Shown: positions 21,721-53,285 of the stretch, one piece after another | Layout: each line of letters opens with the position of its first letter | Position numbering within the stretch: position 1 is the first letter of the stretch | NCBI GenBank assembly: GCA_021904315.1 | Contig: CM038918.1 | Location: forward strand, 1,379,349-1,443,348 | DNA length: 64,000 nt | Origin: Sphagnum magellanicum | Lineage: Eukaryota > Streptophyta > Sphagnopsida > Sphagnales > Sphagnaceae | Reading direction: 5' to 3' | Position numbers and translations under genes: made by a program | Notes under the pieces: generated by a model | Told to the model about the DNA's origin: nothing | Database searches by the model: none | The model's input: the letters and a program-made list of their open reading frames with translations, nothing else

Positions 21721-21754
21721 ACCTCCACACACAAACATTTCAGCTGTTTATACT

Positions 21755-23215: not shown

Positions 23216-23223
23216 ATGCTTCT

Positions 23224-27050: not shown

Positions 27051-29640
27051 GGAATTGTGAATTTGTGATGCTGTATGAAACCTGTTCAAAATCAGATATC
27101 CTCAAGAGGCAGGATGAACCCTTAGGTTAGCAGTGCCAAAAAGGAGGAACAAAAATAGGCAACTTGATTTCAAGAAATTTAAGAGGACAAGACTGAGATT
27201 TTCCATTGCGAACCTAAGCAGACACTAACAAAGCAACAAAAAGCATGTGCTGACAAGATGACACCTCAGAACATAGAATGGAAGCACTGAATTCTGTGTA
27301 GCTATGACACATGTATCAGACAACATGGAATTAGTGCAATGACACATGCAAACTGAAGATAAAGGTACAGGAACAAGTTGATTGACCTCATAAAAAGACC
27401 TTAACAGATCAATAGTAATATGCAGAGAGGGGAAAAAATGATCAAAGAGACGCATCAGTGCATCACTGCTATATTCCAGATGATGGTTCAGAAAATTCAC
27501 GGCTCACAACAGGTGAGACTTGCAGCACAAGGATCTGCGTCATACAACTGCATAAATATCACGTTGTCTGGTGTTTCAGCTTTAGCGAACGAAAACAAAA
27601 CATATAACCCGACAGGCTCGAAGCACACAGGGTGGGATAAGGAAGATTCGAAACCTCTCTACAGCACAACAACAGAAACAAGCCAAGATACTTATCCTCC
27701 ACAGCTTGGCTCCGCTCCCAGCTACAAAAATGCCTGCAAACAACACCAAACACGACCGCACTTCCATTCACAGGCAACAAAAGGGGAAAAAAAAAAGAGA
27801 AAATGTCGACGCACTTGGAAAAGTTTCACTTTCCCTCCACCCGACCTTCTGAAAGCACGCACACACAACAGCACCAAAAAGAAAGAAGAAAAACCAACAA
27901 AAACATTAAAAAATAACGCACCTGCAAAGGTTTGCTCCGCTGTCCAGCAACAAACAACGCCCGCAATGAACACCAAACATCACCGCAACTCCTTCGCAAC
28001 AAAAAAATAACGCCAAAAAAAAACAAACATGCATGCACCTGGAAAAGCTTTGCTCGTCATCAATCCGACCTGCCAGAAAGCATGCAATTGCAACGAAACA
28101 ACAGCAAAAGAAAAATAAACAAAACAAAAGCTCTCACTCTTTCTCCATCCAACCTCCTCCCTCTCCCTATCTCTGTCTCCACTCCCCTCTTTGGATCAAG
28201 CCTTCCATCAATTTACCTTCTGCTGCTACATAAAAAAAGACCAAAAAATGAGCGCACCTGCAGAAGCTCCACCGTCAGTCCCACACACTACACGTCCTTC
28301 CTCCGAAATCAAAACCGTCACCACGCTCCACACCATCACCCTCTTCTTGCTCACAACCCTCCCCACCAACACCAACAACTCCCACAAAACACAGAAACAC
28401 AAACCCAACAAAAGAACAACAGAGCCTACCAACAAACAACACACGGAAAATACATTACCACCGTCCCCTCCACAACTCCAAACCACGCCTAATCCAAGAA
28501 TCTCACACACGACCCGCGGAATGTGAACACAAGCAAAAAAACAAACCTGGAACCCGCCCCATCTTAACAGTGAAATTTGCAGTATTAAAATGAAGGAAAG
28601 CAAAAGCAACCCAGAAACCGAAAGCATGAATAATACATATTCATTGCAATTTTGGAAATAGAAAAAAATCTCTTTGAAATTCCAACATTAAAAGACAACC
28701 AAACAACTCTAGCCAAACATACTTTGATTTTCAAATATGTAATTACACTGTCTGCTTTCATATCTCACTACACAGAGTTCAGTAGACTAATAAGATATTT
28801 GCTTATAAACAGGTCTAGTCGATCAGCTCTACCATGCCATAAACATGAAGGAAGAGACACTCTTATTTACAACACCAGAAAAGCAGACCTCTAATAAGTG
28901 AAAGCACTGAAATTCAAAGATCATTAATTGCGGAGATGCTTTAGCTGGAAACATTAAAGGCAATGGAAGCCGCATTCAGTAAAACTGTATTTCCTGCGAA
29001 CAAAGTAGACGCTGCAACAGCACCAGTAAAAGGTCCTTCAGCGGAATGCAAATCGTTCATCTGGATCCCTTCCTGTGGCTCTTCTCCTGTGCCTGCAGTT
29101 CCGACCCATCAACAGGCAAAGGTTATTTGAACACAGTCAGTTACATCTGGAAGCAATACACAGAACTACGATGCGTACGCAAGTCTTGTCGGCAAAGAGT
29201 AGCTGGCAAGATAACTCAGATTCGAGATTAGCCCAGTTAGAAACGTGAGCTTGCTCTGCCCTCATTAGACTAGTTTTGCACTTACTAATATACCATCGCT
29301 CGCGATTGTTGGCGGAATTCTTGATGATGCAGAAGTAGGGGCAGCTACTGATGACTGGTTTCGCATGCTGAGATGCAGGCCATAGCCATTTATGGTGATG
29401 AAAATGAAGGGAAGGAGCAGCCTTGATATCAGCGACGCAGAATCCGAGGCGAAGTTTGACGTTAGTGCCTGCCATTCGCTCGTTGGTGGTGTTGCAACGT
29501 CTGCACTCATGAAAACTAATTCGTCCGCTTATCTCTTCTTCTAATTTAAGAACTTTCATAAAATCTGCCACCCCTCAAGGATTTGTTTCAATATAAACCA
29601 TACTGATCTACAAACACAATCCTCTAAGGTCTTATACTCA
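27051..29640 (+). repeat. Joined B+A repeat, copy BA3
   Basis: It starts at the position equivalent to 9333 of B1 and is nearly identical to B1 over the B part. The A part (from about 28530) is more diverged. Its 72-bp duplication is collapsed to one hybrid unit (28801-28865), and the MAMETAS equivalent (about 28961) begins MAMEAA-like but lost codons. The end differs from A1 and BA2 and runs into AAGCACCTGCA repeats at 29640. Confidence 0.8.
28248..28526 (+). CDS. Hypothetical 92-aa ORF in BA3
   Basis: This is the third copy of the MSAPAEAP ORF, with about eight substitutions, no frame change and the same length. The preceding CT-rich leader is at about 28130-28195. Confidence 0.3.
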   Translation: MSAPAEAPPSVPHTTRPSSEIKTVTTLHTITLFLLTTLPTNTNNSHKTQKHKPNKRTTEPTNKQHTENTLPPSPPQLQTTPNPRISHTTRGM

Positions 29641-29879
29641 TCCAAGCACCTGCAACCCACCCGAAGTACCCAAGCACCTGCACCCCAAGCAGCACCTTTG
29701 GGACCCACCCCCAAGTCTTTGCATACGGAATACAAAGACAACAAAACTGGTCTCATTTGTCCTAAAGTAATCCATGTGTCCTAGGGTCAAACCTCAAGAC
29801 AAATAGATTATAGTGTTTTGGTCGAAGGCAAGGACCTAGTCCTTGGGACACAAGCTTGCACACCATAAGATTTGGTGTC

Positions 29880-32779: not shown

Positions 32780-33310
32780 CTGGGGGCCTAGGTCTGTTAG
32801 GAGATGCCTAAGCAAGACTTAGGGGATTACACAAAGCTTATTAAAAAAGTTAACTAAAGATTATGTTAAGTTAAGAGATATTTAGGGATTATTTAGGTAC
32901 TATATAATATCTATTTAAGGCTATTGAAAGAAACACCTAAGGATCTATTTAAGTTATGGGATATCTAAGGATTAGATGATTATTTAAGACCTATGCCTAA
33001 AAAATACAAGGAAACAACTAAAGACATACCTAAGATATTAGATCTAAGGGCCACTTAAGAGATTACATAGAACTTACTAGAAGGTTATCTAGGGGTTATC
33101 AAAAGTTTACATAGGAAATTACATAAGACTTGCTTAGAGAATTAGTTAAGGAAATACACAAGAGCATACTTAGGTTATGGGGTACCTAAAAACCACTTGG
33201 GGGACAGCATACAACCTACTTGTGTGATTAAAAATTTCCCTAAGGTAGGGGATATCTAAGAGTTATTTAGAGAGTTACTTAAGGTTGATTCATGGTTCAA
33301 AAGGGGTTAC
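32780..33310. repeat. Very degenerate short-period repeat
   Basis: Words like GATTACATAAGACTTACTTA, TTAAGAGATA and GGTTATC.AGGGGTTA recur at about 20-30 bp spacing without a clean unit. It is an old decayed tandem array. Confidence 0.45.
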
Positions 33311-33479
33311 ATAGGTCAAAATCAAAAGATTTGTTGCACTTACAAAAATAAAGGAAATCCTCCAAAAAAATTTAGATACTTTCACAAATTAGTGAAAAAT
33401 TGTCACCAAATCACGACATAAAATATAAAATGGAAATAGGTGAAGTACAGGAGAGGGGGAAAAGGAAAAAGGTGAGAGA

Positions 33480-33962
33480 AAAGGAAGGGTGTGAAAATTC
33501 AAGAATAGTTTTCGAACAAGTGAAATTTGACAACATGGATAAAACAAAATTTCAAATAAATATTAACAACGAATATTGAATAAATGAAAATTCTATTTGT
33601 GGATGATAGTGATTATAAAAATGCAATTCTGTATGCATAGATGAATGTGATCACATCAATGAATTTAAAGATTTGGGTGAAATTTTAAATACAAATGAAT
33701 TTCGTGTTTCATGAATGGAATTTATCACACATGTAATTTGTTGTTCGATAGGACTTGATGATGCATGGGACTATATTCATGAATGAAGTTGACTACATGA
33801 AATTAACTAACCACACCTAATTAGATTTATATATGAACAAGCTTTGACAACTTGGATGAAATTGAATTTGGTAGTAAAATTAACACATATGGATGAAAAT
33901 GAATGAAAGGACAATATAGATGAATCTGACATCAACTTTTTGAAAGCTATGGTACCACATGG
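33480..33962. repeat. Degenerate GGATGAAA-type repeat at left edge of D2
   Basis: Phrases such as GACAACATGGATGAAATTGA, CACATATGGATGAAAATGA and ACATGGATGAAAGTCATC recur and run straight into the first bases of element D2 (33963). The core resembles that of the minisatellites after the A copies. Confidence 0.5.
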
Positions 33963-33969
33963 ATGAAAG

Positions 33970-35290
33970 TCATCAATTTTAATGAAATTTCACAATGTGG
34001 ATGAATATTTTCCACGTAGCCAATATCCTTTGTATGGTTAATTTCATCCAGGAACCCAATTTCATTTCAATGTCATCAAATTTTTATCAACAAATATATT
34101 GATTATTTTATCTTTATGGTCAATTTAAACCATGTGCATATCACACATATATAATGTTGTCAATTTTGGTCATGTGTTTAGTATCATCCACATTGTCAAC
34201 TTCATCCATATTTTCATGTAAAATCGTGACAAGGGTTGAATGTCTTCACATGTAATGCACGTAATCATGCAATGGAAGGAACATATCAACAAAATGTTGC
34301 ATATATAGAAGGCTTCCAATTGTATATTTAAAATTGTTACAATTTTTCATAAGTGGCTGAAATGTGGGTTGTTGATAGGCACTTGTGGACCTATACTATA
34401 TAAAAAAACCATTAATGGTAGAATATAACACATATTTGACTAATTTTGGACTTAAATGTTATTTGGACTTAATTCACCTTGTTTAGTGGTCCAAAACAAT
34501 TTAATTTTCATATGATGGACACAAAATTGCTTTTTATTTCCATTTTTCCTGAATTTAATATTCTCAAATTTGATGTTAATGAACAAAATTTGACCATAAT
34601 AAATGTCTTACGATAAATTTCCATCAAAACACCTAGAACTTAGGTTTTAAGAAAAATGGTACACCTAAGTCATCAAATTATAAAACTTGTAGCATCTAAT
34701 GGCCACCAAATGTTAAATTTATAATATATATAATTTTATTTTTTTCAAACTTATTGAAATGTTTAATAACTTATTTTTAAATAAAGAGAAAATGGTACCT
34801 ACATCATCAAATTATAAAACTTGGAGCATCTAATGGCCACCAATTGTTAAATTTATCATATAATATATAACATTATTTTCTCAAACATATTGAAATGTTT
34901 AATTTAGTTTTAAATAAAAAAGAAAATTATGATATCTAAGTCATCAAATTATAACACTCAAAGTATCTATTAGCCACTAGATGCTAATATTATAATAATA
35001 TTTCTACAAAGAGATTGAAACATCTAACTACATTAGTATTATTATTATTAAACTTTCATTTTTTATAATATTGTAACTTAATATGTAATCATTATTAATG
35101 ATTTTAGAATTTTGTGGCCATTAAATGTTATTATTACATAAATGTATTCAAAAAATATTTTTAAATCATCTATTAACTTAATAATAACATATTAATTTCA
35201 ATAATATATTTCACAATGAACTCACATAACAAATTTCTTGAAAAATCAATAATTATTTTAATCATCATGATGATAGAAACTATTACATTT
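33970..35290. other. Non-coding AT-rich left part of D2
   Basis: Homologous to 10860-12077. It has three tandem-like versions of the GGTACACCTAAGTCATCAAA block (about 34660, 34790, 34930) against two in D1, so a unit of about 130 bp changed in number. Confidence 0.6.
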
Positions 35291-35297
35291 CATTTGG

Positions 35298-38200
35298 TTA
35301 CATATAGTTCACTTTATTCGCCACATCAATGTTTGCTCTAGCTTGACTAGCATGCACATCACTAATCATTACGACGTTATTCATTGTTGTATTTTTCCTA
35401 GTAGGAAATGAAAAGGCAATAGAATCAATGTCCACCCATTGCATTGGGTCCGATAAGTTGCATTTCCACTTTCCTTCCCAATAACCTTGATACAACTCTA
35501 CATCATTGCGTGCTCATTTCTTGAAGGGCACCCACCATTGAACATGCACCATTTGATAATACTCATCATTCACATCCTTGACCACATCACTATGCACTCT
35601 TCCCATCCATACTAGATACATTTCAAGTTCAAATGGACATGCAAGAAGAAAATCCCCTTCATGTAAATCCCTAAAAGGAGTGTAAGTTGCTATACTCAAG
35701 GACGATCGCATGTTTTTAGGACCACAATATGGAGGAATAGCTGGATCTTCCATATCATCAAAGATAGGAATTGATGGAATAGAAAATTTCACATGATTAA
35801 CTTTCCAATTACTAGTCGGCCAAAAGCCCTCTAACAATATAAGACTTTGTTGAGGAATTGATTTTGACAAACAATTTAAAATACCTTCCCAATATTCAAT
35901 ATATGGCTTCATGACTCTAGCACACATATCATCTTTCAAAATATTGGACAAGGTGTTTTACTTCACCTTAATGTGATATGTGAATGTTGTAAGGATGACA
36001 AGTCTACTTTTGAAGGGTGATGATCCAATTGATCTTTGGTACTCAAGAAGTGAGGGGGACCATATTTGTGTTGGTCGTGGGAGATGCAAACGGGTTGATT
36101 TGATTACTTTACATAGTTCCAATGGACTTAACAATTGTATTGTGGTGGTTCCGGAATTTATTTTCCAACAGTTTTAGAATCTAAAGTAATTATTTCCAAA
36201 TTTTTGTGGAAGATTTGTTGGAGGTTTTTTGGGATTAGCTAGTGAAAGATGTGTCATGGTTGGGTGGTCATTGGCAATCGGATTTTCTTGTGGAAGATCA
36301 AACGGTGTTGTTTGGGGAGGAATGATTTACAAATGTAGTAGTGATGGACAAGGCTTGAGAGGTACGGTCAAAGGAGAACATTATATTTTCCTTAAATAAA
36401 TGTAGCTCCAATGGAGAAGGATCGGGAGGTTAATTTAGAGGAAAACATTAGAATTTTTGACAGTTCGGAGGAAGGTGCCCCATCAACAACTATTAGAGGT
36501 GATGAAAAGATGGAAGAAGGAATGAAAAATGTTCCTTGTATGAAAAGAATGGAATGGTGTGGGAGAAAGTGTGAATTGGTGAATCATGTAGGAGGGATTA
36601 TTGTTGAAAGGAGGATTGTTGCTTGTGACCTAAGGGAGTTTGTTTTGGATGACAATTTGGTGAAATTGAGGTTGGGGTCACAATTTTGAATTATCCAAAG
36701 GATACTTCATAGATAATGACAATATGGAGGTTGCCTTTGTCATGAACAATTCTTGATGGTCATTGTTTAGTGTCATTGCTTGCTACATATGATGAACATC
36801 ATGTGTCGAAAGATGAAGAAGAAAGATTTGTGGGGGTGAAGAAAAAAAGTGACATTTTTTTGAAAAGAAAACAAAGGGAATCAAAACATGAGGCTTACAT
36901 TTCAAGGATTGATTAACTTTTAAGCAATGAATCAATTTGTGTTATGAATTCAAATAGTTGTTGCTCTTTCAATTGTTGTTAATATTTCGCTCATGAGAAT
37001 ACATTTAATGTGTGACAAGAGTTTTGGAACTTATCATTCACTAATAGTAGAACGCATATTTTAGATATTCCTAGAAGATTGCATTAAAAAGTTGGAGTAA
37101 AGAAACAGAGGTTTGTTATAATATAGAATGTTGAGATTTGTAAAATAACATGGTATAAGATTGTTGGGATTTTGCAATTTTCACAACTATTTAATAAACA
37201 AAATAATGAATGTGGGACAATGCAAAGGACGCATGGAAATGTTGGAATGAAAAAGCAATAAGTAATAACTAGGCAAGTTGAATGTAACGTTTAATCGTTG
37301 ATTGATTAATGAGTTGATGTAATGCCACACCGAATGAAAGGAATTGGGAATGGTAGACAAGATATTTACCTTCTAATTCTTGACATTTGGAAAAGTATTC
37401 AAGAAAGGAGCAATGAGGTGGGGTCAAATTTTGCATATTTGTAATAATGTTTGTTTCGTTTTCTTTTGCTTGTTCTTGTTAATGTAGATAGAGTTTTGTG
37501 GATTTTTCATCTAAACACTTTTGTTTTGTTTTGGTGTGATATTGCAGATTAGCAAGGAGTTAAATATTGATGAGGTATCTCAATTTGCTGTGAACCAGTT
37601 GAGGAAAAAATATCATCTCAATGTTGATGTATGAAAAAGAGGTTTAACCTTTGCAAAATGTATTGTATGCAAATATTTGAAAGACTTGATATCCAAAGTT
37701 GGAAAAAATAGTGTTCATGCCAAGGAGCATGAATTGAAATTGAAAAGACATAACAAGCATCAAAAGTCGTGTGGACGTATTTACCATAGTTAGAAAGCAG
37801 AGTCCATTCAATCAAAGAAAGAGTTTGTGTGTATCATTCATGATAAGATGGATCATACAAAGACAATTTTACCAAGGTTACAATTGAAAAACAAAATGGT
37901 TGCTGGGCTTGGTCAATTGCCAATCACATTAATTGAAACGATTATTCATGGGCATGGTGATGAGGTGTTTATTTTATACTCAAATGAATTATGGCCCAAT
38001 GACCTTAATTTCACAATTGGATATCTTTTGTGTTTATTACAAATTTTGGAGAAGGAATTTATTTGTGAGTTGCAAAGGTTGTTTGATCATGAGTTACAAA
38101 ATGAATTCTTTGAGCAACTAATGTGAGGGAGTTTGTGCTAAGTGAAGGCATTGAAGGCGCGTGAACAAGTTGTTGGTGCAAAACCTTTACCTAAGAAATT

Positions 38201-38795
38201 ATTACTTTAAATGGATAATTTTGTGAAGGATAATAAGAATTGACATTTTTTTGTTTTTTGTAATTATTAATATCAAAGGAGGTCCTTGAAGAAGTCTAGT
38301 TGGGATTTCTTGTTGTTGGTCATACGCATGAAGATATTGATGGAAATTTTGGTTACTTGTCAAAGAAATTGAAAGAACAAAATAACTATGTGTTAACAAA
38401 TTTGATGAAAGCATTTATGGTTTCACAAGAATGGCCATTCATTCTTCAATTGATTCAAGAAATCCTAGATTTCAAATCTTTTGTTCAAGGTTATTTGAAA
38501 GATGGACTTGAAGTATTGGTTGGACACACAAGCATGCATCTCTTTCGATTTTTTGTGGATTCTTTTGGGTGGCCAATGATGGAGTACAAGGTGTTTTCAA
38601 TAGATTCAATATGAATCCCCAAAGATGGCCTTGCAATTCGATTGTGGAAGTTGGATGATCAAGGTCACCCAAATTGTTTAGTGGAATTCCAAAGCATGTT
38701 CCTTTCTGTCCTTTTGGGGGGATTTGACGTTTGAAAGTCAATAGAAAAAGAAAGATTTATCAGTAGTGGAATTTGAAATTATTTAGAGTTTTAGA
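35298..38795 (+). pseudogene. DUF7869-type protein gene, D2 copy (internally inverted)
   Basis: The plus-strand part (35946-38795) runs from an N-terminal Cys-rich region through a CC...F region (about 36960) and HGNVGM-like text. An intron ends TATTGCAG at about 37546. The core then reads CIIHDKMDHTKTILPRL (37827 on), DNFVKDNKN (about 38213), VGHTHEDIDGNFGYLSKKL (about 38316 on) and MHLFRFFVDSFGWPMMEYK (about 38540). The final 200 or so codons (LVWMGRV, WWVPFKK, then KCNLSDPMQWVDIDSIAFSF) are on minus at 35298-35945. In D1 the whole gene is on one strand, so an inversion with breakpoints near 35945/35946 and 38795 split it. Acidic residues in the three core motifs fit a DDE/RNase H-like fold. 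Transposase activity is an inference. Several stops and frame losses make it non-functional. Confidence 0.65.
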
Positions 38796-38797
38796 AG

Positions 38798-39618
38798 TGA
38801 CGCACTCCCAAGTCCCTTGTTGAATCCACTTGAGGGTCCAACTATGTGTAGTTGCGGAAAGTTAGGACTTGAGGGGCGCTCCCGACTTCTAGCACTAAAA
38901 GGGGGTAGAGAGGCATGCTAGAATTCCCGGGATTAAACTAGGAAGATGGACTAGAAGATCAAGCTTGAATCTGCATCCAAAACCAACCACAAGAGGGTTA
39001 GTTAGCATTTGGAAACACCCTTGGGTGTTTGGACAAGCCACGGGCACTTTTACACACAAGACTCACCACGGCCCGGACTCAAGGGGAAGCCACCACCTTC
39101 CCCCATATAGAATACTCTGCAGCTCTCCACCGAAGCTACATCCAAATGGCTTTTTTTCCCGGGACTCCCAAGTGGGAGTCTCAAAACTGTCCCGGGTTAG
39201 AGTCCCAGGACTTTGGACGGCCATAGCTCCTCGCCCTGAACTCGGATCGGGACAAGCTTTAAACCAAAGTTGTAGCTCTCGTTGAGAGCTTTCCAACGTT
39301 GTGTTGCACTCCTTGAGGCGACGTTGGGAAGAGGTCGATTCCCGAATTTTAGTGGTCGGGAGTCAAATTGGTAGTTTGACTCCCGACCCTTCTTTTGCCC
39401 ATAACTTGGGCTGCAAATGTCCAAATGAGCAATGCGAGCCCATTTTGGACATCTACGCTTCAAGATCTTTCCATTGATTTAAAGAATGTATCAAGGCCAG
39501 GAGATTTGACCCCTCAAATCGTCTTCTAAGTTTTCGGGAGTCCCACAGGACTCCATTTTCCCACTTTTGGGAATGTGAGTAGCATTCTCACACTTAGCCC
39601 CAAAGTGGGGTTGTGACA
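38798..39618. mobile_element. LTR-like segment (possible solo LTR)
   Basis: About 820 bp of GC-richer sequence begins TGACGCACTCCC and ends GGGGTTGTGACA, so either strand reads TG...CA with short imperfect inverted ends. The minus strand begins TGTCACAACCCC, a form common for plant Ty3-type LTRs. No flanking target duplication, primer-binding site or internal region is seen. If correct it is a solo LTR fossil. Its left end falls at the inversion breakpoint of D2. It occurs once in the window. Confidence 0.4.
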
Positions 39619-39639
39619 CATAGGGGGAAAATGGGGTAG

Positions 39640-40110
39640 TCAACCAATTTTCCCTTTAGAAATTCAAAGGGGAGAATTGAGTGGTTGCTTGATGCTCCCT
39701 TCAAAAGAAAATTAATGCTCCCCATCCAAAAATCAAAGGTGGATAATCGAGAGGCCAGTCGATTTTCAACTTCAAAAATTTGAAGGGGGATAATCGAAAG
39801 GTCGCCCAATTTTACCATTTGAAAATTTCAGAATATTATAATTAGGTGGCCACTCGATTGTCGCCTAAAAAACCCATAAAAGGAGTATCATGCGGCCACC
39901 TAATTCTCCCTTTTGGAGAGTCTCCAAAGGGGGGAACTAGGAATCAACCTAATGTTCCCCCTTCCAAAACTCAAGTGGGAAAATCGAGCAGCCGTTTGAT
40001 TCTCCATTTCAAAAATTTGAATGGGGAACATCCTGCGACAACCTAATTTTCCCACCAAAACAATTGTAGAGGAAAATTGAACGCCCACCCGATTTTACAT
40101 CAATGTCCAT
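39640..40110 (+). repeat. Palindrome array in D2, between DUF7869-type gene and module X
   Basis: This is the most regular array, with spacing often about 46-48 bp (39741, 39789; 39977, 40023, 40069). Units read GGATAATCGAGAGGCCAGTC then GATTTTC, and many have matching outer arms (GGGAGAAT...ATTCTCCC). Each unit is therefore an imperfect hairpin of about 30 nt around GTGGCCAC. Confidence 0.75.
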
Positions 40111-40149
40111 AATAAATGTCCTTTTTAGTAATTTTGTTCATTTTGTGTT

Positions 40150-43100
40150 GAAATTTTTCAAGAAAAAACTCTTAACTACCTACACTCTTGGATTGATGTG
40201 AAAAGTCCTCAGGCCCTTTCTAGGAATCAATGAAGACTACAACAAAGCTTTTTTGGAAATTTGGGAGCTCCACAACAAAATATCGTCTTGGGGTGTATCA
40301 TTGAAGGAGGAGACCAAGGATGAAGACCCAAAGTTCATGTTCTGTCATATGAAGTTGTGGACAAATGACTATGTCAAAAATGTTGGGTAGGAAATCCTTT
40401 AGTTTGATGACGATGAGTTTTTTGTGTTTTTGTTCTTTGAGAATCCAAATAGCGATCCTTGCAGTTGTGCAAGGTTACTTTGCAATGAAGAAAAGTTGAG
40501 TGAAAAGTTGAATTTCCTTGCAAGCATTGAAGCAAGACTCAATGTTCGAGCATTGGTGCATTAAATGGGGTGAACATTTGCATGTATGTTATTATGCAAA
40601 ACAAACTAAAGCTAAAGGTGAAAAATGAAAAGATGGTGTAGCCACAATTGACATTGGTTATGAACGTTGAGAGCCCTGCAATGCAAAAGAAGTTGAAGAA
40701 GCCAAAGAAAGAGAAGATTGAGAATGAAAAAAAAGATAAAAATGTTAATGATGTTGTGAAACATAAAAAACCCAAGGATTTCAATGAGGCATAATGCAAA
40801 AAATCGACCATGCTATGTTTGCAGAGTTTGATGATTGTTTTCCATTAGATTTTGAAGCGATTCTTGATGTTGAAATAGATGTTCAACATTTTGTTGAAGC
40901 CCCATCATAGATTCGTTGTTGCCCATTGTGCGTGAAACACAAGAATGAAATAAAGATTAAGTTTATGACCCTACACAAGACTTAATGGAAGATGTCGATG
41001 TATTTATGTTCGGCAAGTCTAATGGATCCAAAGGAAATCTTTCCAATTAAGCCCACTAGTTGGAATGAAATCTCAAAATGCATGTTTTTTGTTCTGAAGG
41101 TGCTATCATATAGCTTTGGCGCTACATGTATCCCATTTTCTCATATCCATGACAATCCTATTTATTTTTGTAAACTAAATAACTATTTTAATTGAATTTA
41201 TTTTTTGTAGGAAATTCTTGCATTGGACAATGTCTATTCAAAATTGCGGGAAATATTTTCAAGTTTACAGCTCATCATTGTTTGGCATCTAGAGACTCTT
41301 TGGATGTAGAAGCTTTCATCAACATTTAAGAACCCTAACCACATGCAGAAGTGTTTGCTAATGTATAAAGAGAACCTTTCTCACGTTCGATGCATCTAAA
41401 TAGAACTTGGAAGTCCAACCATGACATTAAGTTCAAATAGGCATTCCGAGGACTTCAACATATTTTATCGAGATTTCTAGTCATTCGTTACAATGCTTTA
41501 CTATTTACAAAGTATCAAAATCTAATTGTTTCATAAATGATGTAGATTTTTGAAGGTTCATTCTTGGTTGTTTTCGGAGTGAAATCAATGAAAGAAGGTA
41601 TTAATATTCTTTTGGCATCAAATCGAGTATTTGACCTACAGTCAAATATTTTCCTTGCATGGGAGGAAGGAAGAATCCTTGATGGTATTGATTGTTTATC
41701 GTCCAATCTTCCTCCTTTAGGGAAATTTACATTATTTCCATTCATCAGACTAAGTGAGTCCTCTTATTGATCTCACAAATGAACTTTTGGCTCAAAGGGT
41801 GGCATTGTGGAATTAGCTAGTGGGAAGAGGTGATCCTCACATTTAAACAATGCTAGAATTGTCCCTTGCTCAAAAGCATAAAAAGGTGATCAATCATGAA
41901 ATCATGGTGCACCATGGTTTTTTGAGATTAATTTTGTTCAAAAGCACCTACACCATGAAGGAATGGAAGGAGGTGGAGGCTATGAATGATTATAACAATC
42001 AATTGTTCAAGATCTTGGAATGACAATAGACAAAGAAAATTTTCACTAAAAAATTAAAGTTGAATCCATCCAAGGATCCTCCCCCATTATCATTCGTTGA
42101 TACCTTAAGAAGGTGCAAATCAAGTAGGAATCATGAGGGCGTGTTAGTGAATGCACTTGTCTTCGAGAATTCCTACAGGTGCCAAAAGATCATAGACATG
42201 TTTACATTGAAAGAGATTCTTGATTTTCAAAGAACTATTGATTTCCTTTAACAAGGTGCTAATGGTACCATTATTGTGATTTGCACCACTAATAACTCAA
42301 AAAAGTTCATTGTTTGGAAAGGGGACAAATGGGAGAACATTCTTGGCAGACTAAAAGACTACACTATGCACATAAATGTGTGGGTGTGTATATGTGAAAA
42401 GCAATCCTTTAAGTATTTAATGTCTATAGTTCATAAAATTGTAATTAGTCCATACATAGAATGTGAGATTGGGACTTATTCTCCATAGTCAAAGGAACCC
42501 ACTAGCGAGCGTAATACAATTGTCAAGAGCCCTTTTCTTTTCTTTGTTTATTTGTTTAGAAGGAATGTTGGAGAGGATGTTGTTAAGAAGGCCCTAGGAA
42601 ACAACTGGCTTTCATGAGTGATCAAAAGGAAGGATTCCACACACCTGGATGTATGCCAAATTTATAAGCAAGAGGTTTGCCCAAAGGCTCTCTGTGTTAT
42701 TCTTCTTCCATTGTTCTCAAACATGGTTTCCATCATTAGTATTTATGGTGATGGTGCACTCTCCTTTTTTGCATTAATCAGTTAAATCCTTTACTTTATG
42801 TGCAAATTTCTATTCTCGTTATCTTTCTTGAAAGTTTTTTGATTTCTATTTTGTGTTGTTATTACTTTGCAAGAGTTAAAATGTAAAGTCTTTGAACTAT
42901 TGCCTTTTGGATTTGCTCCAAAAAGTGGGGAAACAACTTTTATTTGTTTGCAAATGGTGCCTGGGGTTCTAATTCACTTAAACGATGAGAGCAATCTAGA
43001 GGACACAAATATCGAATATAACATAGATGACTAGAAAGATGATGTTGAATAGGTGGATTGTGAAGAGGAGGACACCATGAAAAATAATGATTTTGGGGAT

Positions 43101-43640
43101 ATTATGAAATCATCAAAGAAATCCTAGTTGGGTGGTGAAGTAGGGACATCAAGGAGTTTAGGTTATACTCATAAAAAAGATTAGCTCGATCATGTACGGG
43201 CACAAGAAGTGACAATCCCTATAGTTATTAAAAGACTACAAAATAAGCAAGGTGTGCACCAAAAGAATGTTGAGGATGATTTTGATCTTGAAGATTACAT
43301 TGTGAATCCTATAGAAGAGTAAGCTGGAATTCCTATTTCTAATTTTGATGTTAATAGGGATAGCTCAATCAAAGAACAATCGAAGAGAAAATCCTTGCAT
43401 TGAATGTTGGTGAGCAAACGTTTGACCTTCCACACCTAAAGGAAATGAGTCTAGTAAAGAAGAATATGTCAAATATTTTCATTTTTTTATTCATGTACCA
43501 ATTGTAATTATTGAAGATAATTTTGTTATGATGGATTCCACATTACAAGAGTTTGTGTTACCACATTCTCCCACTAATAGAAGTTTAGTAAATGTAGGAT
43601 CAAATTTTTTCTTGTTGTTAAATGAAATCTATTAGATTAC
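40150..43640 (+). pseudogene. Module X: decayed multi-exon gene of unknown family
   Basis: This module is present only in D2. Recognisable coding stretches on plus include FLGINEDYNKAFLEIWELH and FDDDEFFVFLFFENPNSDPC (40210-40560), a Lys-rich basic run (about 40680-40790), FKFTAHHCLASRDSLDVEAF (about 41260) and VFGVKSMKEGINILLASNRV (41564-41770). Further on are ILDFQRTIDFL, GTIIVICTTNNSKKFIVWKG (42060-42488) and PKALCVILLPLFSN, ISIYGDGALSFFAL (about 42690-42780). A likely intron follows (to about 42870), then an acidic C-terminal tail. The GTIIV...W and PLFS...I.GDGALSFFAL pattern vaguely recalls a Rossmann-fold methyltransferase, but the catalytic motif is not visible, so this is weak. I do not recognise the family. 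Many stops break the frame. Confidence 0.4.
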
Positions 43641-43739
43641 ATGATGATATTTCTTCAAAATGAAAATTGGGTATATGGTTCTTAAATGCAATTGTTTTTC
43701 TATTTGTAAATTGGGATAATTAATGCAAATTTCATGCTC

Positions 43740-44165
43740 TAGGATTGAGTAGCCACCTAGTAAACCTATGCTTTCATTTTTTCACATTTATTTTTGTTGG
43801 TGGATGGATTTGGGTGGCCACCTGATTATATCACTTTGGTGTTCCTTTTGCTGTATTTGTTATTACCTAGAATTGAGCAACCGTTTCATTCTATTCCCCT
43901 TTTGTTCCTATTAATTGGTGATTTTTTGGTTTGTTATGATTGTTCATCCCACGCCCTTTAAACATGTGATTTCATTGTTTTTTGTTTTTTTTATTAGTGA
44001 TTAATATTTGGTGGCTGCTCGATTTTATAACCATTGTTTTCTTGGGTGGCCACTTGATCTATGCCGTTGTTTTTATGGATGGTCACATGTTTCAAACATG
44101 ATTGTTTAATTTTTTCCAAAAGATTTTTTTAATGGTTTTACAATTAGGTGACCAATTTTTTTGAA
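43740..44165 (+). repeat. Palindrome array in D2, between module X and FCP1-like genes
   Basis: Sites occur near 43745, 43806 (GGGTGGCCACCTGATTATAT), 43875, 44020, 44046 and 44080. From about 43870 on this stretch is homologous to 15219-15520 of D1. The portion to its left is not in D1. Confidence 0.7.
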
Positions 44166-44384
44166 TTTTTAAAAAATATTTTTTGTTTTATTGTTGGCGA
44201 TTTCATTTTGTATTATATTTCATGGTTTTTTTTCCCATTGTTTGACTTGGTAGGTTTGGTGCAATGAGTAGATTTTTTGAGTATTAATGAAGTTGTTGCG
44301 AATGGTTTTGAAAATTTTGATTTATGAGTTTTTTTTTTTTTGGTCTGTATCGCAATGTTTAAAACTTGGTTTTCCCAATTCTGA

Positions 44385-44790
44385 AAGGTGGGTTGAAATT
44401 TGTTTTGTTAGGTGAAAAGATTGACCGAGAACTAGATTGAATGTCTTATTGATGACAAACTTATTGACTTTGTCGAAGGCATTGAATGTCACATTAGCAA
44501 GGTGCAATCTAAAATGTAGTCCCTTGGTGGGGATGCTTGTCCAAGGTTTCACAAAGGTGTTGAAGATGATTACAATAGGTATGAATCTAATTTGTGTTTG
44601 AAAGATTGTGTGAAATGGAAAAGATTTGTGTATAAATTATGCTCATTGTGAGAATGGTCAAGTTGCTAAGTTCCGTGTCGAAGAAGGGTGTTCCACTCCA
44701 TTGGAGTGCCTATGCTCAACTTCAACAGCGTAGAATCGGCTTTAGTGTTTTCTTCCTCTCCACCACATCCAACAAGTCTTGAATGTTTGA
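44385..44790 (+). pseudogene. Unknown region upstream of FCP1-like domains, D2
   Basis: Homologous to 15716-16145. In the plus frames one can still read GGLKFVLLGEKID-like text, the Cys-rich CENGQVAKF and EEGCSTPLECLCSTST. It is more decayed than D1 in the first half but keeps the Cys-rich second half better. Confidence 0.4.
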
Positions 44791-45195
44791 GAAATATTTC
44801 AAAATTGGGGCATTGGAATGTATAGGATAAAGAATTATTAGATCGGGAAATTGGTACCTCACCAAGTTTTGGTGGTGTTCAATCAATAATGAAGGTTGGG
44901 GTAAGTTAATGAAATTGAAATTTGTGATTTGTGATTTTATTATTTTTGGGGAATAATTCTTGATGATGTTTACATCAAATGACATGTAAGTTGGATATAT
45001 AATTAGTGTTTTATTTGCATATGTTATTCAAATTGCGCCTATTTTGCATGAGAAAATATTGCTTAACATTCCCCTTCTCAATGGGTTTACCAAGGATGTT
45101 GATACTTCACAAATATTGTAGTGTACTAAAAGGAAAGTAGGGTTGGGTTCATCTTTTGGTCTAGTGGTCGATTTTCGAATTCCTAAGGTGAGTTG

Positions 45196-45885
45196 TATTA
45201 ACATTATATTTGACTTGAATCAAATTATGGTTGCTACAAAGTTCCAGGCATATTAGAAGATGGGCCTTGTAAGTTGATATAGGAAACCCTTTGTTCTAGG
45301 TTGAACTATTGTTTTGAGGCTTGGATTGAAAGAATTCCTTGAAAGGTGTATTTCGCACTTTATTATGTACATATGGTTTGCAACCTAACACCACAACATC
45401 AATAATTATGTGGATCAAATCAAATGTGAAACTGACATCATTATTGATCCATCCAAGATACTTGGGTAAGAATCTTGCACAAAAAATGTTCATTTTTTGT
45501 CCTCAAATCTTGAGAAGCTTGTTTTTCGCAAGAATTTGGATATTTTTCTTTTTTAAATATTTAGATGTGTGTGTTGGGAATACCTTGTTTGTTCACGATA
45601 CCCCGTATAAAATTCTTGTCAATGGGCCATATAATGTTATTTTTGTTGAGACATTTGATAGCTTTATTAGAGATAACCATAATTATTTGCTGGGAGTTGT
45701 TTTGCCTTGATTGGAGGCTCTTCAGTCTTCAAGAGTCAATGTCCCCACATTTGTAGAAAATAACCCTTTCAGTAACATTGAACATATTAATTAGAATGAT
45801 CCCAAATACAAGACGTTATTTGAAGATTATGGTGATAATTGTGATGCTTCATATTATAAAAAGGTGAGAATGAAAATGAAGAATA
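45196..45885 (+). pseudogene. FCP1/NIF-like HAD phosphatase domain 1, D2 copy
   Basis: It begins INIIFDLNQIMVATKFQAY, the same variant of HAD motif I as in D1 (DLNQ instead of DLNG). LGLKEFLERCISHFIMYIW, NNYVDQIKCETDIIIDPSK and LEKLVFRKNLDIF follow. The LLVDDTPYKS region reads VHDTPYKILVNGPYNVIFVE (about 45592 on), again with His for the first Asp. Shared variants in both copies show that the departures from the canonical motif predate the split of D1 and D2. The reading frame is interrupted. Confidence 0.6.
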
Positions 45886-46494
45886 AGTGTAATTGGTTTT
45901 TTAATATCATTTCAAAGCTCTAGTAGTTTTGTAGAATTGGATTGAAAAATTGAAAACATTGCACATTGTTAGTTTGAGTATTGGTTTCATAGGAGAGGAA
46001 ATATGAATATAGTATTGGGTGCCCACCCAATTCTTAAATTCAAGTGTTTTGTTAGGCATGTTTACTAGAGATGATACACAAAGTTCTAATTTTCAAAATA
46101 TAGGACATTGGGATTTTTTTTTAATGTAAACATAAATAAACAAGAATGATAGTTGATTGAATTTTCTTGGTGTCGAAATAGGGATTACCCTACACTTGTA
46201 GTATGTAGTTTAATTGCTACCTAACATTTTCATCAGGTGTAGTTGATGTTGATGGAGATTGAGATTGTTTAATTGTACTTAAATTGAGTTCTTGAACTTG
46301 CTTTTAATTTGTTGGATGATACAGGGGACAATGTATTATAATATTATTTGAAAAAAATTTGATTTCATTATTATTTATATGTTTGGTTATGCTAACTTCT
46401 ATTGGTTATGTAGGTCATTCCTTTTTGTCCATTTGCATTAGTTACACAAATATGTTGGTGATTTTGTTCATGTCCTTTCTTGAAAAAGTTGTTT

Positions 46495-47253
46495 GATTCT
46501 TAACGTGAATGGTGTTTGTCCTATTTTTCGCAGAGTGTTGTTTTACAAGGGAAGTAACATGTGAGGGGGAAAAATATTACTAGCACTAAAATGGAAGCAA
46601 GAGTTGGAGTTCAACATTTTCTTACTCATGCATTCAAGAAGTTTCATATTGGAATTTGGTCTTATATGTTGATTGAGGATATTGTGGAAGTTCTTACTTT
46701 ATTATTGCCATAAAATTTTATCGACCAATTTTTTTTCATTTGGGGGCGTGAATAATGTTCAATGACATGAGGTCAACTTGGAGTTGGAAATTATTATTAT
46801 TTCAAGGATTTAAGTCATGTGTATTCTACTTGTAGAGGACTACCCTATGGGAAAGAAGACCAAACCCTATTCACTGATGATGAGCTGAGCAAAGCTTTTC
46901 AAAATTCCAAGCACATTAATTTTTTTTTGGAGTCTTTTAGAAGACATAAGCTATTCAATAATAAGGTGAAATGGTTGGACCTCGCTTTGTGGTTGTGGTT
47001 AGCGTTGATTGGATTACCTTTTACAAGTACAATTCAAATGCATTTTCAGACCATCATCAAGTTTTTAAAGCCACGTTTGAATTCCTATTCCTCTCATTAT
47101 TCTTGGTTCGTGCAATACATGAAAAGTGATAAAGTGGATTGCAGAATTTTTCAAATTCCTTTAGGTATGTTCTATTTTCAATATTTTCATTCAAAAAAGA
47201 CTTTTCAAATTTTACTTTCGACACTTCATGTAGATAAAAAGTTCAACTACTGA
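46495..47253 (+). pseudogene. FCP1/NIF-like HAD phosphatase domain 2, D2 copy
   Basis: Motif I reads LILNVNGV. The N-terminal half is broken, but 46819-47253 stays open for 144 codons. It gives STCRGLPYGKEDQTLFTDDE (family TLL.DDS), LSKAFQNSKHINFFLESF and VKWLDLALWLWLALIGLPF, to YMKSDKVDCRIFQIPL. The last part extends beyond the D1 equivalent and matches the C-terminal helices of plant FCP1-like proteins. The phosphatase motif here keeps DD, unlike domain 1. Confidence 0.65.
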
Positions 47254-47584
47254 GTTTTGTTTGTAGTGGGTTCGGAGTATTGTTTACAGACCGCATGACA
47301 ATGTTTGTAGCTTTGATAGGCCGAAAGCAGTGTTATCCAAATGGATCTTATTTTCAAGATGACGATGATGTTATTTTGTATCTTATTGCTTTACAATGAT
47401 CAAATTTCTTAGTGTTTGAAAGCTTGAAATTTAATCTTTTAGAAGTTGGTTTTCAGGAAATCAAATGTCACATGACATTATCTATGTTTGGTTTATGTAT
47501 ATGTAATAATTTTTTGGGAGCTTGAATGTTTCATATTCAATGTTGGATAATGTAATAAATATTGTAAATTTGTTAAAACTTACT

Positions 47585-47870
47585 CTGCAAAGGACCAAAC
47601 CACCTAGTTATAATGTGGGCATTTGTTCTTTGTTAATTGGATTTCAAAGGACCAAGTGGCCACTTGATCCTAATTGAAACATTTGGGCCTTAAATAATGT
47701 TGTCATAATGGATCAGGTTGCCACCCAGTTTTAATCATTCATTGGCCTTTATTAAGTAGGTTGCTAAAGAGCATATGACCACTTGGGTTTAAACCAAACG
47801 TTTGTTTGATTAGTAATTACATTGGAAAGGATCAAGTGGCCACCTAGTTCTAGTGAAAACCATTTCAAAT
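47585..47870 (+). repeat. Palindrome array at right edge of D2
   Basis: Homologous to 18890-19152. Sites include CAAGTGGCCACTTGATCCTA (47654 on), CAGGTTGCCACCCAGTTTTA and CAAGTGGCCACCTAGTTCTA (about 47833). Three are closer to perfect palindromes than the D1 versions. Confidence 0.75.
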
Positions 47871-47950
47871 AATTTTTTTATATGCTGAAACTGTTTATGG
47901 TTATTTTGGACAGTTGTAAAGTTCAAAATTAATTAGATACTAGTTATATC

Positions 47951-48112
47951 TTACAAGTTACTCTTTAAAATTTTGTGTATGGTTAATGCCCAAGGCTGTG
48001 GGCATTACTTGAGTAAGGGCTCAATTTCAGGAATGCCCACTGCCCAGTGTTCTAGTAATGCCCATGGTCTCAGGTATTACCCCCACACAAAATTTTGAAG
48101 TTTAACTTATAA
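47951..48112. repeat. Foldback (MITE-like) inverted repeat, D2
   Basis: Homologous to 19250-19409. The arms TTTTGTGTATGGTTAATGCC and ATTACCCCCACACAAAA still pair, with more mismatches. It was therefore already inside the element before D1 and D2 separated. Confidence 0.75.
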
Positions 48113-48121
48113 AAATCAAAT

Positions 48122-49209
48122 ATTCTACAACTAATGTTGTGTGGCATTTGATTTTCCCTGGTTTCAGTTTTTGAAAATGTTAAAACCAAAGAATTGCTGG
48201 TTGAATTTTTTGAAAAAAAATCAGAATCAAAGAACTTGGGATTTTGGTTATTTCCAAAACTCAAAGAAACTACAGATTCCGTGAAAGAACCAGCAAAGAA
48301 TAGTAGGTTCTTGACAGTTCTTTGATTATTTTTATTTTAAAAAATACAAATGTTGGTTATATATCAAAACTAGTTCGCTGATTTATTGAGCAGCAAGTTG
48401 TGAGATCCAGGCAAGTGCGGCCCTGATAATCACGGGGGTTCTGGTTCCATTTCTAATACCAGCACATCTGCTGGTTAAAACTTACATGGTTTTTCATGTT
48501 TACAGCACATCTTTTGCTAGATTTTATGTGATTGTGACATGGGGTGTGATGACCCTTCCTTTGGGTTTTAGGGCTTTAATATGGAGGTGGAATTCTCTAT
48601 ATTTTCAAAAATTTGGTGTGAGAAAATGGCAACCATAAGTAGATAGTGAAATTTTGTTACAAGCAAGGTACACGACTAGGGGGGCCATGGCATCCATGTG
48701 TCCAATCTTATAGCGAACATACTGTACAGGTCACTGTTTTTAAATGAATTCCTTCTGTTTGTTGCGAAAGTGGTGATCATTCATGGAAGATGTAGAAAAA
48801 GTGGCAATCTCAAGGAAGATTTAGCCAAATCTGACTATAAACCATAAATAAAATAAAAATATTTAATCCTTCTTTTTTATGTTTGGGTACAGAATAATAA
48901 ACACATATAAGAATCTCGAAACTTTATTTATTTATTTCAATTCTGGCTACTGAAAACATTCAAAATTAATTTTTTTCTTCTTTTCTTATTTCGCATTTTG
49001 GCGATAGATTGTCAATTTTTTAACAGGCTTGTTAAGGTATGACCTAGTTCAGCATATATGCACATGTAATTTTGACATTTTTATTGACAGCAATTCAAGA
49101 ATTGTGTGGTCAAGTGGAGATAATCATCCATGATTCTTGTATTCAGAAGATTATAATGAGTCTTGATTCCAAGAAATTTGGTTCAAGGAATAACTTTAGT
49201 ACAGGATTG
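48122..49209 (+). repeat. Unit E, copy 2
   Basis: Homologous to 19420-20502 and 53765-54871. It ends AGTACAGGATTG at 49209, directly followed by repeat A. It has a small local duplication near 48770-48810 (GAAAGTGGTGATCAT, AAAAAGTGGCAATC) absent from copy 1. No coding region is recognised. Confidence 0.7.
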
Positions 49210-50580
49210 TTAACACCACCCTCCACACCATCACTCTCTGCGTGCTCACAAGGCTCCTCACTAACACCAACATCTCCCACAAAAGCCACAAACACAAACC
49301 CAACGAAAGAACAGCAGAAGAGACTACCATCCAACAACACCCGGAAAATACATCACCACCGTCCCCTCCACAACTCCAAACCAAGCCTAACCCAAAAATC
49401 TCACACACAAGTAAAAAAAACCTGGAACCCGCCACGTCTGATCAGGGAAATTTACAGCAGTAAAATGAAGGCAAGCAAAAGCAGCTCAGATATCGAAAGC
49501 ATGAATAATAAATATGCATAGCAAATTGGAAATAGAAAAAAGCCCCTTTGAAATTCCAACATTAGAAGACAACCGAACAACTCTAGCCAAACGTACATAC
49601 TTTAATGTTCAAATATGTAAATACACGGTCTGCTTTCGTATCTCACTACACAGAGTTCGGTAGACTAATAAGATATTTGCTTATAAACAGGTCTAGTCGA
49701 TCAGCTCTACGAGCATGTCTCAAACATCAAGGAAGACGCATTATTTTTCATAACTATAAGCACGTCTAGCCGATCCGCTCTCCGAGGATGCCATAAACAT
49801 GAAGGAAGAGACACTCTTATTTACAACAGCAGAAAAGCAGACCTCTAATAAGTGAAAGCACTGAAATTTCAAAGATCGTTAATTACCGGAGGTGGTTTAG
49901 CTGGAAGCATTCATGGCAATGGAAACCTCATCCAGTAACACGGTATTTGCTGCGGACAAAGTAGACGCCGCAACAGCATCAGTGAAAGAAGAAGGTCCTT
50001 CAGCTGGATGCAAATCGTTCATCTCGATCTCTTCCGGTCGCTCTTCTCCTGTGGGGCCTGCAGTTCCGACCCATCAACAGGCAAAGGTTATTTAAACACA
50101 GTCAGTTACATCTGGGATCAATACACAGAACTAGGATGCGTACGCAAGTGCCGTCGACAATGAATAGCCGGCAAAATATTAAGTCAGATTGAAGATTAGC
50201 CCAGTTACAAACGCTAGCTTGCTTTGCTCTCATGGGACTGGTTTTTCATTTAGAAACATACCATCATCGCTTACTGATGACCGCTTCCGCATGTGGAGAT
50301 GCAGGCGACAGGCAGCGATGGTGATGAAAATGAAGAGAAGGAGCAGCCTTGACATCAGCGTCGCAGAATCCGAAGCGAAGCTTGACGCTAGTGCCTGCCA
50401 TTCGCTGGTTGGTGGTGTTGCAACGTCTGCACTCATGAAACTGATTCGTGCACCCATCTCTGATGCTAATTCAAAGGACTCTCGCGAAACTATGAGCAAG
50501 TAAAGTATTTGTTTTCAATGAACATCATATTGATTTCCACACACAATCATCTCAGTTCTTATACTCATCCTGCTCTTCTG
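49210..50580 (+). repeat. Repeat family A, copy A5
   Basis: It has the same content as A1: 72-bp duplication (about 49680-49815), MAMETSS ORF (49913-50095) and a block near 50189-50503 reading MKMKRRSSLDISVAESEAKL and CHSLVGGVATSALMKL on plus. A minus-strand ORF (50230-50499) is open across the same bases. It runs into the 190-bp-period minisatellite. Confidence 0.8.
49913..50095 (+). CDS. Hypothetical 60-aa ORF inside repeat A (copy A5)
   Basis: This is the MAMET ORF with the same length as at 723-905. Differences are few (T-S near residue 5, SVKEEG, SAGCKS). No family is recognised. Confidence 0.25.
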   Translation: MAMETSSSNTVFAADKVDAATASVKEEGPSAGCKSFISISSGRSSPVGPAVPTHQQAKVI

Positions 50581-50584
50581 GACA

Positions 50585-52105
50585 GACGCCCTCAAGGGAG
50601 GCACTCGGGAAGTGGCCGAAACTGGGTGGAATGGGGATGAAAAGCACTTGACTTGGATGAAATGGGGGGCACTCGAGTTGTGGATGGAACAAAAAGTGGA
50701 TGAAAAGCAGCTGTCAGAGACTTGTGGAATCATGCCTCAGGGGGGGACTCGGGAAGTGGCCGAAACTGGGATGAAAAGCACTTGACTTGTTGAACTTGTG
50801 GAAGGGGATGAAAAGCACTTGACTTGGATGAAATGGGGCACTCGAGTTGTGGATGGAACAAAACGTGGATGAAAAGCAGTTGTCAGAGATTTGTGGAATC
50901 ATGCCTCAAGGGGGGACTTGGGAAGTGGCCGAAACTGGGATGGAAAGCACTTGACTTGTGGAACTTGTGGAAGTGCAGGAACTTGGGTGCAATGAGGATG
51001 AAAAGCACTTGACGTGGATGAAACGGGGCACTCGAGTTGTGGATGGAACAAAACGTGGATGAAAAGCAGTTGTCAGAGATTTGTGGAATCATGACCCAAG
51101 GGAGGGACTCGGGAAGTGGCCGAAACTGGGATGGTAAGCACTTGAGTTGTGGAACTTGTGGACGTGCAGGAACTTGGGTGGAATCGGGATGAAAAGCACT
51201 TGACTTGGATGAAGTGGGGCACTCGAGTTGTGGATGGAACAAAACGTGGATGAAAAGCAGTTGTCAGAGATTTGTGGAATCATGCCTCAAGGGGGGACTT
51301 GGGAAGTGGCCGAAACTGGGATGGAAAGCACTTGAGTTGTGGAACTTGTGGAAGTGCAGGAACTTGGGTGCGATGAGGATGAAAAGCACTTGACGTGGAT
51401 GAAACGGGGCACTCGAGTTGTGGATGGAACAAAACGTGGATGAAAAGCAGTTGTCAGAGACTTGTGGAATCATGCCCCAAGGGGGGGACTCGGGAAGTGG
51501 CCGAAACTGGGATGGTAAGCACTTGAGTTGTGGAACTTGTGGAAGTGGAGGAACTTGGGTGGAATGAGGATGAAAAGCACTTGACTTGGATGAAATGGGG
51601 CGCTCGAGTTGTGGATGGAACAAAACGTGGATGAAAAGCAGTTGTCAGAGATTTGTGGAATCATGCCTCAAGGGGGGACTCGGGAAGTGGCCGAGACTGG
51701 GATGGAAAGCACTTGAGTTGTGGAACTTGTGGAAGTGCAGGAACTTGGGTGGAAGGGGATGAAAAGCACTTGACTTGGATGAAATGGGGCGCTCGAGTTG
51801 TGGATGGAACAAAACGTGGATGCAAAGCAGTTGTCAGAGACTTGTGGAATCATGCCTCAAGGGGGGCAGTCGGGAAGCGGCCGAAACTGGGATGAAAAGC
51901 ACTTGAGTTATGGAACTTGTGGAAGTGGAGGAACTTGGGTGGAATGGGGATGAAAAGCACTTGACTTGGATGAAACGGGGCACTCGAGTTGTGGAATCAA
52001 CAAAACGTGGATGAAAAGCAGTTGTCAGAGACTTGTGGAATCATGCCTCAAGGGGGGCAGTCGGGAAGTGGCCGAAACTGGGATGGTAAGCACTTGACTT
52101 GTGGA
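50585..52105. repeat. Minisatellite with about 190-bp higher-order period
   Basis: The landmark TTGTCAGAGATTTGTGG recurs near 50712, 50881, 51071, 51262, 51452, 51643, 51832 and 52023, giving spacings of 169, then 190 or 191 each. Each unit is made of sub-repeats with GGATGAAAAGCACTTGACTT, GGGGCACTCGAGTTGTGGAT and GGGAAGTGGCCGAAACTGGG. Units are about 95% alike by eye. Confidence 0.92.
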
Positions 52106-52390
52106 ACTTGTGGAAGTGCAGGAACTTGGGTGGAATGGGGATGAAAAGCACTGGACTTGGATGGAATGGCAGAACTTGGGTGGAATGGGGAGGAAAAACA
52201 CTTGACTTGGATGGAATGGCAGAACTTGGATGGAATGGGGATGAAAAGCACTGGACGTGGATGGAATAGCAGAATTTGGGTGGAATGGGGATGAAAAGCA
52301 CTTGACTTGGATGGAATGGCAGAACTTGGGTGGTGGAATGGGGATGAAAAGCACTTGACTTGGATGAAATGGGGATGAAAAGTACTTGAC
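52106..52390. repeat. Minisatellite, 50-bp units
   Basis: About five units consist of TGAAAAGCACTTGACTTGGA, TGGAATGGCAGAACTTGGGT and GGAATGGGGA. This is a simpler relative of the 190-bp units on the left. Confidence 0.9.
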
Positions 52391-53285
52391 TTGGATGAAA
52401 TGCCAGTGAGAGAGTCCCTTGGATGGAGGGGCACTCCGGTTGTGGATGAAGATAACGTAGTAGAAATGTGGATGAAAAGCAGTTGTAAGAGACTTGTGGA
52501 AGTGACGGCCTCAAGGGGGGCACTGGGGAAGTGGCCGAAACTGGGTGGAATGGGGATGAAAAGCACTGGACTTGGATGAAATGCAAAAGCTTGGGTGGAA
52601 TGGGGATGAAAAGCACTGGATTTGGATGAAATGCAGAAACTTGGATGAAATGGCGATGAAAAACAGTTGAGTTGAGTGAAATGCAGAAACTTGGATGAAA
52701 TGGCGATGAAAAGTACTTGACTTGGATGAAATGCCAGGGAGAGTGTCCCTTGGATGGAGGGGCACTCGGGTTGTGGATGAAGATAATGTGGTAGAAACTT
52801 GGATGAAAAGCACTCGGGTTGTGGAAGTGGCCGAAATGGATGGAGGGCACACGGGTTGTGGAGGTGGCAGAAACTTGGATGAAAAGCACTTGGACGACAG
52901 ACCCTCCCTTGGATGGAGGGCACTCAGGCTGTTGGATGAAAGATCACCCTTGGATGAAGGGGCACTCGGGGAGCGGATAAAGTGGCCGAAATTTGGATGA
53001 AAAGCACCTGGATGAAGTGGCATAAAGTCGATGAAAAGCACTTGGATGAAAGATCACCCTTGAATGAAGGGGCACTCAGGGAGTGGATGAAGTGGCCAAA
53101 ACTTGGATGAAAGCACTTGACATCGATGAAATGCCAGAAACTTGGATGGAATGGGGATGAAAAGCGCTTGACTTGGATGAAATGCCAGAAACTTGGATGA
53201 AATTGGAATGAAAAGCACTTAATTTGGATGAAATGCCAGGGAGAGAGTCATGTGGATGAAATGGAGCACTTGGATGAAATGTCAT
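52391..53285. repeat. Irregular GGATGAAA minisatellite tail
   Basis: Mixed units use the same vocabulary (CTTGGATGAAATGCCAG, GGATGGAGGGGCACTCGGG, GGATGAAAAGCACTTGG) without a fixed period. Some larger blocks occur twice (for example ATGCCAG.GAGAG.GTCCCTTGG near 52400 and 52730). Minus-strand ORFs up to 291 codons cross it (52048-52923) but only reflect the lack of stops in the repeat. Confidence 0.85.

Follow-up and report, generated by a model that had tools for sequence, protein, structure and literature searches.

Two decayed copies of a block with DUF7869 and FCP1-like gene remnants and palindrome arrays in Sphagnum magellanicum

The 64,000-nucleotide stretch of Sphagnum magellanicum contig CM038918.1 studied here (the window) carries two homologous copies of an unusual block, D1 (10852-19430) and D2 (33963-48120), in which remnants of a DUF7869-type gene lie next to remnants of two FCP1-like HAD domains, NIF1 and NIF2. 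A first-pass annotation had offered two accounts of this composition, an undescribed multi-gene mobile element and a gene cluster copied as a block. The second fits best: the right flank, units C and B (2.3 kb), is common to both copies, with no stop at the proposed end of the block. We therefore consider it likely, with a probability of roughly 0.65, that D1 and D2 represent one dead block present twice through local segmental duplication, and the setting is best explained as a plant-like genomic region that is rich in repeats and heavily methylated.

Extent of the two copies and their flanks

Self-comparison of the window by blastn, together with an identity profile, bears out the homology of the two copies, and with their continuation they occupy 10852-21757 and 33963-50568. 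The right ends initially placed at 19430 and 48120 are not ends at all, since homology runs on through C and B to 21757 and 50568; it is unbroken over 15214-21429 (43866-50167 in D2), and the next block follows at 21431-21757 (50243-50568). Unit C lies at 48135-49209 after D2 and at 19432-20502 after D1, with a third copy, lacking D, at 53789-54871. Unit B follows C at 49186-50578 in D2, and its other copies are at 1-1394, 20479-21757, 24823-26257 and 28319-29646. The two units are separable: C occurs without D at the third site, and at 24823-26257 and 28319-29646 B has neither D nor C beside it. Between the D1 and D2 copies, unit C has an identity of 0.919 and unit B one of 0.933. The window opens, at 1-1394, with sequence that is 0.928 identical to the D2 counterpart of B and the adjoining end of C, as would be expected at the end of a third copy.

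Segmental duplication predicts homology that passes through a block into its flank, as is seen on the right through C and B. Copies of a DNA transposon would be expected in unrelated flanks, whereas C and B lie to the right of both D1 and D2. Two independent insertions would not have these units in common, and the present pair therefore derives from the duplication of a larger segment. On the left, D1 directly abuts an A-B repeat broken near 10850, and different DNA adjoins D2. Because homology extends on the right and the left end of D1 is a repeat junction, 10852-19430 and 33963-48120 were rejected as element termini. A-B repeat units, at 90-96% identity, lie at 9030-10849 (the unit broken at about 10850, at the start of D1), 23224-26257 and 27050-29646. 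Beyond B are tandem satellite-like arrays whose repeat units measure some 50-191 bp, at 21788-23221 on the D1 side and at 50608-53281 on the D2 side.

Internally, the copies run in the same direction over D1 10852-12721 (D2 33963-35946) and D1 15214-21757 (D2 43866-50568). Between these segments, D1 13153-15167 corresponds to D2 37926-35945 and D1 12725-13142 to D2 38796-38379, both inverted. The module order is consequently not as simply common to the two copies as had been thought: D2 shows an inversion relative to D1 12725-15167, which splits the DUF7869 gene, and holds an extra 38797-43865. We take D1 to have the older order and D2 to be the inverted copy because the C-terminal part of the DUF7869 gene directly continues the gene in D1. 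The extra 5 kb is indeed confined to D2, as first noticed, and has no second copy within the window. It has no Pfam match, and its longest stop-free runs are 78 aa on the plus strand and 101 aa on the minus strand. Its GC-richer start (38797-39620) looks, by eye, like part of a retroelement end.

Gene remnants and their decay

The gene set first ascribed to both copies is present in D2, where DUF7869 and both NIF domains score above their cut-offs, but less complete in D1, where decayed homologues remain, DUF7869 gives no profile match in the stretches tested and NIF2 falls below the cut-off. In D2 the DUF7869 profile (PF25273) matches in two frames, at 38151-38246 (E = 6e-6) and 38255-38599 (E = 3.7e-21), covering positions 48-76 and 80-190 of 192; the score of 76.0 bits against a curated cut-off of 26 places the remnant in the family. 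These matches belong to the inverted part of the gene (37533-38797, plus strand), which has one frame shift near 38250, and the C-terminal part, cut off by the inversion, is at 35400-35957 on the minus strand. The D1 remnant (12176-13545, minus strand) was traced by tblastn with D2 pieces, which fall in order, from 13545 down to 12176. The series spans the position of the D2 breakpoint and is interrupted by stops and frame shifts. D1 lacks a core of about 450 bp with the MDN and GHTHEDID motifs: D2 37927-38378 has no counterpart there, the gap falling between 13154 and 13143, and the profile gave no match in any D1 stretch tested with Pfam. The DN/HEDID core, once credited to both copies, thus belongs to D2 only. 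Unlike the family at large, the copies are dead, one is read in two frames and the other is without its core.

Its motifs make a transposase-like nuclease the probable identity of the DUF7869 protein, with D, DN and HED/ID as a putative DDE-type site. Any link of the family to a transposon superfamily, among which we considered Sola, would be presumptive at best; a literature search of the library returned nothing on DUF7869. The predicted fold of 37533-38249 alone, made from the single sequence, had a mean predicted local distance difference test score of 35.6, too low for use in judging whether the protein had an RNase H-like transposase fold. Searched by sequence against the PDB, neither the DUF7869 core nor NIF2 gave anything below E = 0.45, and a scan of genome_contigs that finds close relatives only gave no confirmed relative of the core.

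The NIF profile (PF03031, cut-off 21.8 bits) matches D2 NIF1 at 45203-45523 (E = 1.2e-7, 32.0 bits) and D2 NIF2 at 46597-46911 (E = 1.2e-5, 25.5 bits). In D1 it matches NIF1 at 16555-16824 narrowly above the cut-off (E = 1.2e-4, 22.2 bits) and NIF2 at 17936-18256 below it (E = 0.029, 14.5 bits). The remnants themselves, all on the plus strand, extend over 45203-45857 (NIF1 in D2, with an internal frame shift and Pfam support for its first part), 46582-47253 (NIF2 in D2, from Pfam), 16555-17203 (NIF1 in D1, from Pfam and homology to D2) and 17927-18430 (NIF2 in D1, from homology to D2). Although the two had been called tandem phosphatases, their best alignment with each other spans 20 residues at 35% identity (E = 0.057), and we rejected the idea that they are tandem duplicates. 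The canonical motif of FCP1/SCP phosphatases is DxDxT/V. The D domains have the motif region, but it differs, reading DLN/DLS in NIF1 and NVN/NMN in NIF2, and neither retains the two catalytic Asp residues together. In the present copies acidic residues of the motif are missing from the HAD domains, which may not have been active.

Stops or frame shifts interrupt all modules, and the description of both copies as decayed therefore stands. In keeping with neutral decay, 8 of 59 gap events between D1 and D2 are multiples of three, and 1018 of 8398 aligned sites in D proper differ, 757 of them by transitions. The ratio of nonsynonymous to synonymous change (dN/dS) between the copies is 0.84 when pooled (bootstrap 0.65-1.08), with values of 0.46, 0.58, 1.52, 0.86, 1.03, 1.47, 0.62, 0.87, 1.08 and 0.55 in ten partly overlapping pieces. 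Non-proper frames mostly gave lower ratios, and no constraint is therefore visible on the proper frames. C-to-T differences peak at CG (90/239) and CHG (77/225) as against CHH (590/4837), and the window as a whole has a GC content of 0.359 and a CpG observed/expected ratio of 0.40. The strong decay at CHG fits a plant, we infer.

A likely course of events begins with a block in which a DUF7869 gene would have been accompanied, on the opposite strand, by two different FCP1-like HAD genes. Unequal recombination or repair may then have copied it along with its neighbours C and B. In both copies the decay that followed was chiefly C-to-T change in CG and CHG contexts, a pattern evident in the alignment for which methylation is the probable cause. 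The copies differ in the DUF7869 core, which D1 presumably lost, given that the core is part of the domain. D2 bears the inversion inside the DUF7869 gene, beside the 5 kb stretch that D1 lacks and that could reflect gain or loss in either copy.

Palindrome arrays and a weak inverted pair

A palindrome of about 20 bp, RATYRRGTGGCCACYYRATYY, has 25 matches at up to 4 mismatches in the window, and all 25 lie in D1 (8) or D2 (17), which together make up 35.5% of it. Five block shuffles gave counts of 1, 0, 1, 0 and 0. A 16-base form has 18 matches against 0.73 expected, one of them (53085) outside D, and a 20-mer form has 26 against a median of 1 for 200 scrambled palindromes (95% at 4, maximum 18). 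With a weight matrix built from 24 sites, 40 sites score at least 8, 35 of them in D and five outside (20406, 28544, 53969, 55965 and 56319); 57 positions score at least 12 against a null mean of 1.6, a comparison that is circular for the matrix's own sites. All of these figures refer to a pattern picked after the sites had been seen, and sites homologous between D1 and D2 enter twice without being independent.

The sites flank NIF1 and NIF2 on both sides, lie between them, and also occur on either side of the 5 kb stretch. In D2 there is one array within that stretch (39630-40096, spacing mostly 45-48 bp), one between it and NIF1 (43742-44162), a single site between NIF1 and NIF2 (46013-46033) and an array after NIF2 (47650-47850); the D1 set comprises an array before NIF1 (15218-15442), a single site between the NIF remnants (17360-17380) and an array after NIF2 (18948-19148). 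The core of the palindrome is kept while the spacing varies between arrays. The DUF7869 gene has weaker sites (weight-matrix scores 8.8-15.8) on its 3' side; of the six, four are contained in or adjoin a local tandem repeat. Palindrome pairs numbered 0 in viral_contigs. In genome_contigs the single palindrome hit at least 119 stretches, with one match each in the 80 listed, in bacterial and archaeal records; these we took as chance and did not use.

A 36-nt inverted pair encloses all the gene remnants, with its left arm on the plus strand at 11308-11343 (D2 34418-34453) and its right arm on the minus strand at 19218-19253 (D2 47919-47954). It was picked after inspection, from 24 inverted pairs in 9000-21800 and the longest 25 of 41 in 33000-50700. 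The arms pair at 29 of 36 positions in D1. None of 40 mononucleotide or 200 dinucleotide shuffles equals this, and among 400 AT-rich segment pairs taken from real sequence 3 do; for the 27 of 36 in D2 the corresponding counts are 6 of the dinucleotide shuffles and 24 of the real segment pairs. No target duplication adjoins the pair, AATG preceding the left arm and AAGT following the right arm in both copies, and none is present at the ends 10852/33963. With up to 3 mismatches allowed, the window contains no further copy of either arm. Homology between D1 and D2 extends beyond both arms. The longest inverted pair in each region (for 33000-50700, among the longest 25 of 41) is a local hairpin on the right side of D, with 89-nt arms that are 72-74% complementary (19223-19436 and 47924-48139).

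What the block may once have been

Like plant segmental duplications of pseudogene clusters, the D copies have common flanks, CG/CHG-type decay and rearrangements; unlike them, they have a private palindrome array. Several observations sit uneasily with a simple duplication. Neither the block-wide palindrome nor the weak inverted pair is accounted for by chance neighbours, and the left flanks differ, so that the common flank consists of the right side plus about 456 bp on the left beyond the inverted pair. Divergence is uneven, with 154 of 1845 sites differing (8.3%) in 10852-12721 and 864 of 6553 (13.2%) in the rest (12725-19431); the step coincides with the inversion breakpoint, and a single simple duplication may perhaps be an incomplete account. 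Finally, dN/dS is 0.46-0.62 in four of the ten pieces, some of which overlap, and some constraint before or after the duplication is possible. One possibility, on the unlikely side in our judgment, is that a single multi-gene DNA transposon left these remains. The 36-nt pair would then mark its ends, DUF7869 would be its transposase and the HAD genes its cargo, with the palindromes serving as putative binding sites at near-terminal and intergenic positions; the present pair of copies would still have come from segmental duplication. The confinement of the palindrome to the block, far above shuffles, the constancy of its core under varying spacing and the rarity of the D1 pairing all favour this idea, as does the position of sites near both arms (the D1 array ending about 70 bp inside the right arm, weak sites about 430-580 bp inside the left). 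Set against these are the lack of a target duplication, the ease with which the D2 pairing is matched, the post hoc choice of pattern and pair, the homology of D1 and D2 matches, the weak DUF7869-side sites in or beside a tandem repeat, and the death of both copies in a window that holds no further copy of the arms and no independent insertion. En/Spm-type plant DNA transposons have subterminal repeats, short sites clustered near their ends, and D resembles them in having such clusters near its presumed ends; it departs from them in also having sites between genes and in its weak inverted ends, which lack a target duplication. The more specific proposal is of an undescribed plant DNA transposon, at least about 8 kb long, that ended in 36-nt inverted repeats, used the arrays as putative binding sites, encoded a DUF7869-type transposase and carried two HAD pseudophosphatases, whether passengers or partners of that enzyme; we consider it unlikely. 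Literature searches, at the level of the records they listed, turned up no element of such composition.

Alternatively, the arrays might have served to regulate a family of host genes arranged in a cluster, in which case the block would be a host gene cluster that has died. The sites do lie in gaps between modules, and NIF domains are found in host proteins, but the DUF7869, NIF1 and NIF2 proteins show little or no relationship to one another and no intact gene in the window has palindrome sites, which makes this origin improbable. An integrated remnant of a large DNA virus could likewise combine several genes with a common intergenic motif; it is very improbable, as Pfam scans of D1 and D2 gave no viral match and a viral_contigs scan that finds close relatives only gave no confirmed relative of any of three queries: the DUF7869 core, the C-terminal portion of the gene and one piece of the 5 kb stretch. 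Segmental duplication and a transposon past are compatible, the former describing how the pair arose and the latter what the block once was. If D is only a duplicated dead block, it illustrates how repeated neighbours can mimic a composite transposon; if the palindromes and the inverted pair mark one element, DUF7869 would gain a testable transposase role with phosphatase-like cargo. Scans for tRNA genes and Rfam families gave 0 matches each. A short PGAP1 match at 4084-4173, below its curated cut-off (E = 0.0017, 18.6 against 24.3 bits), is perhaps a host exon.

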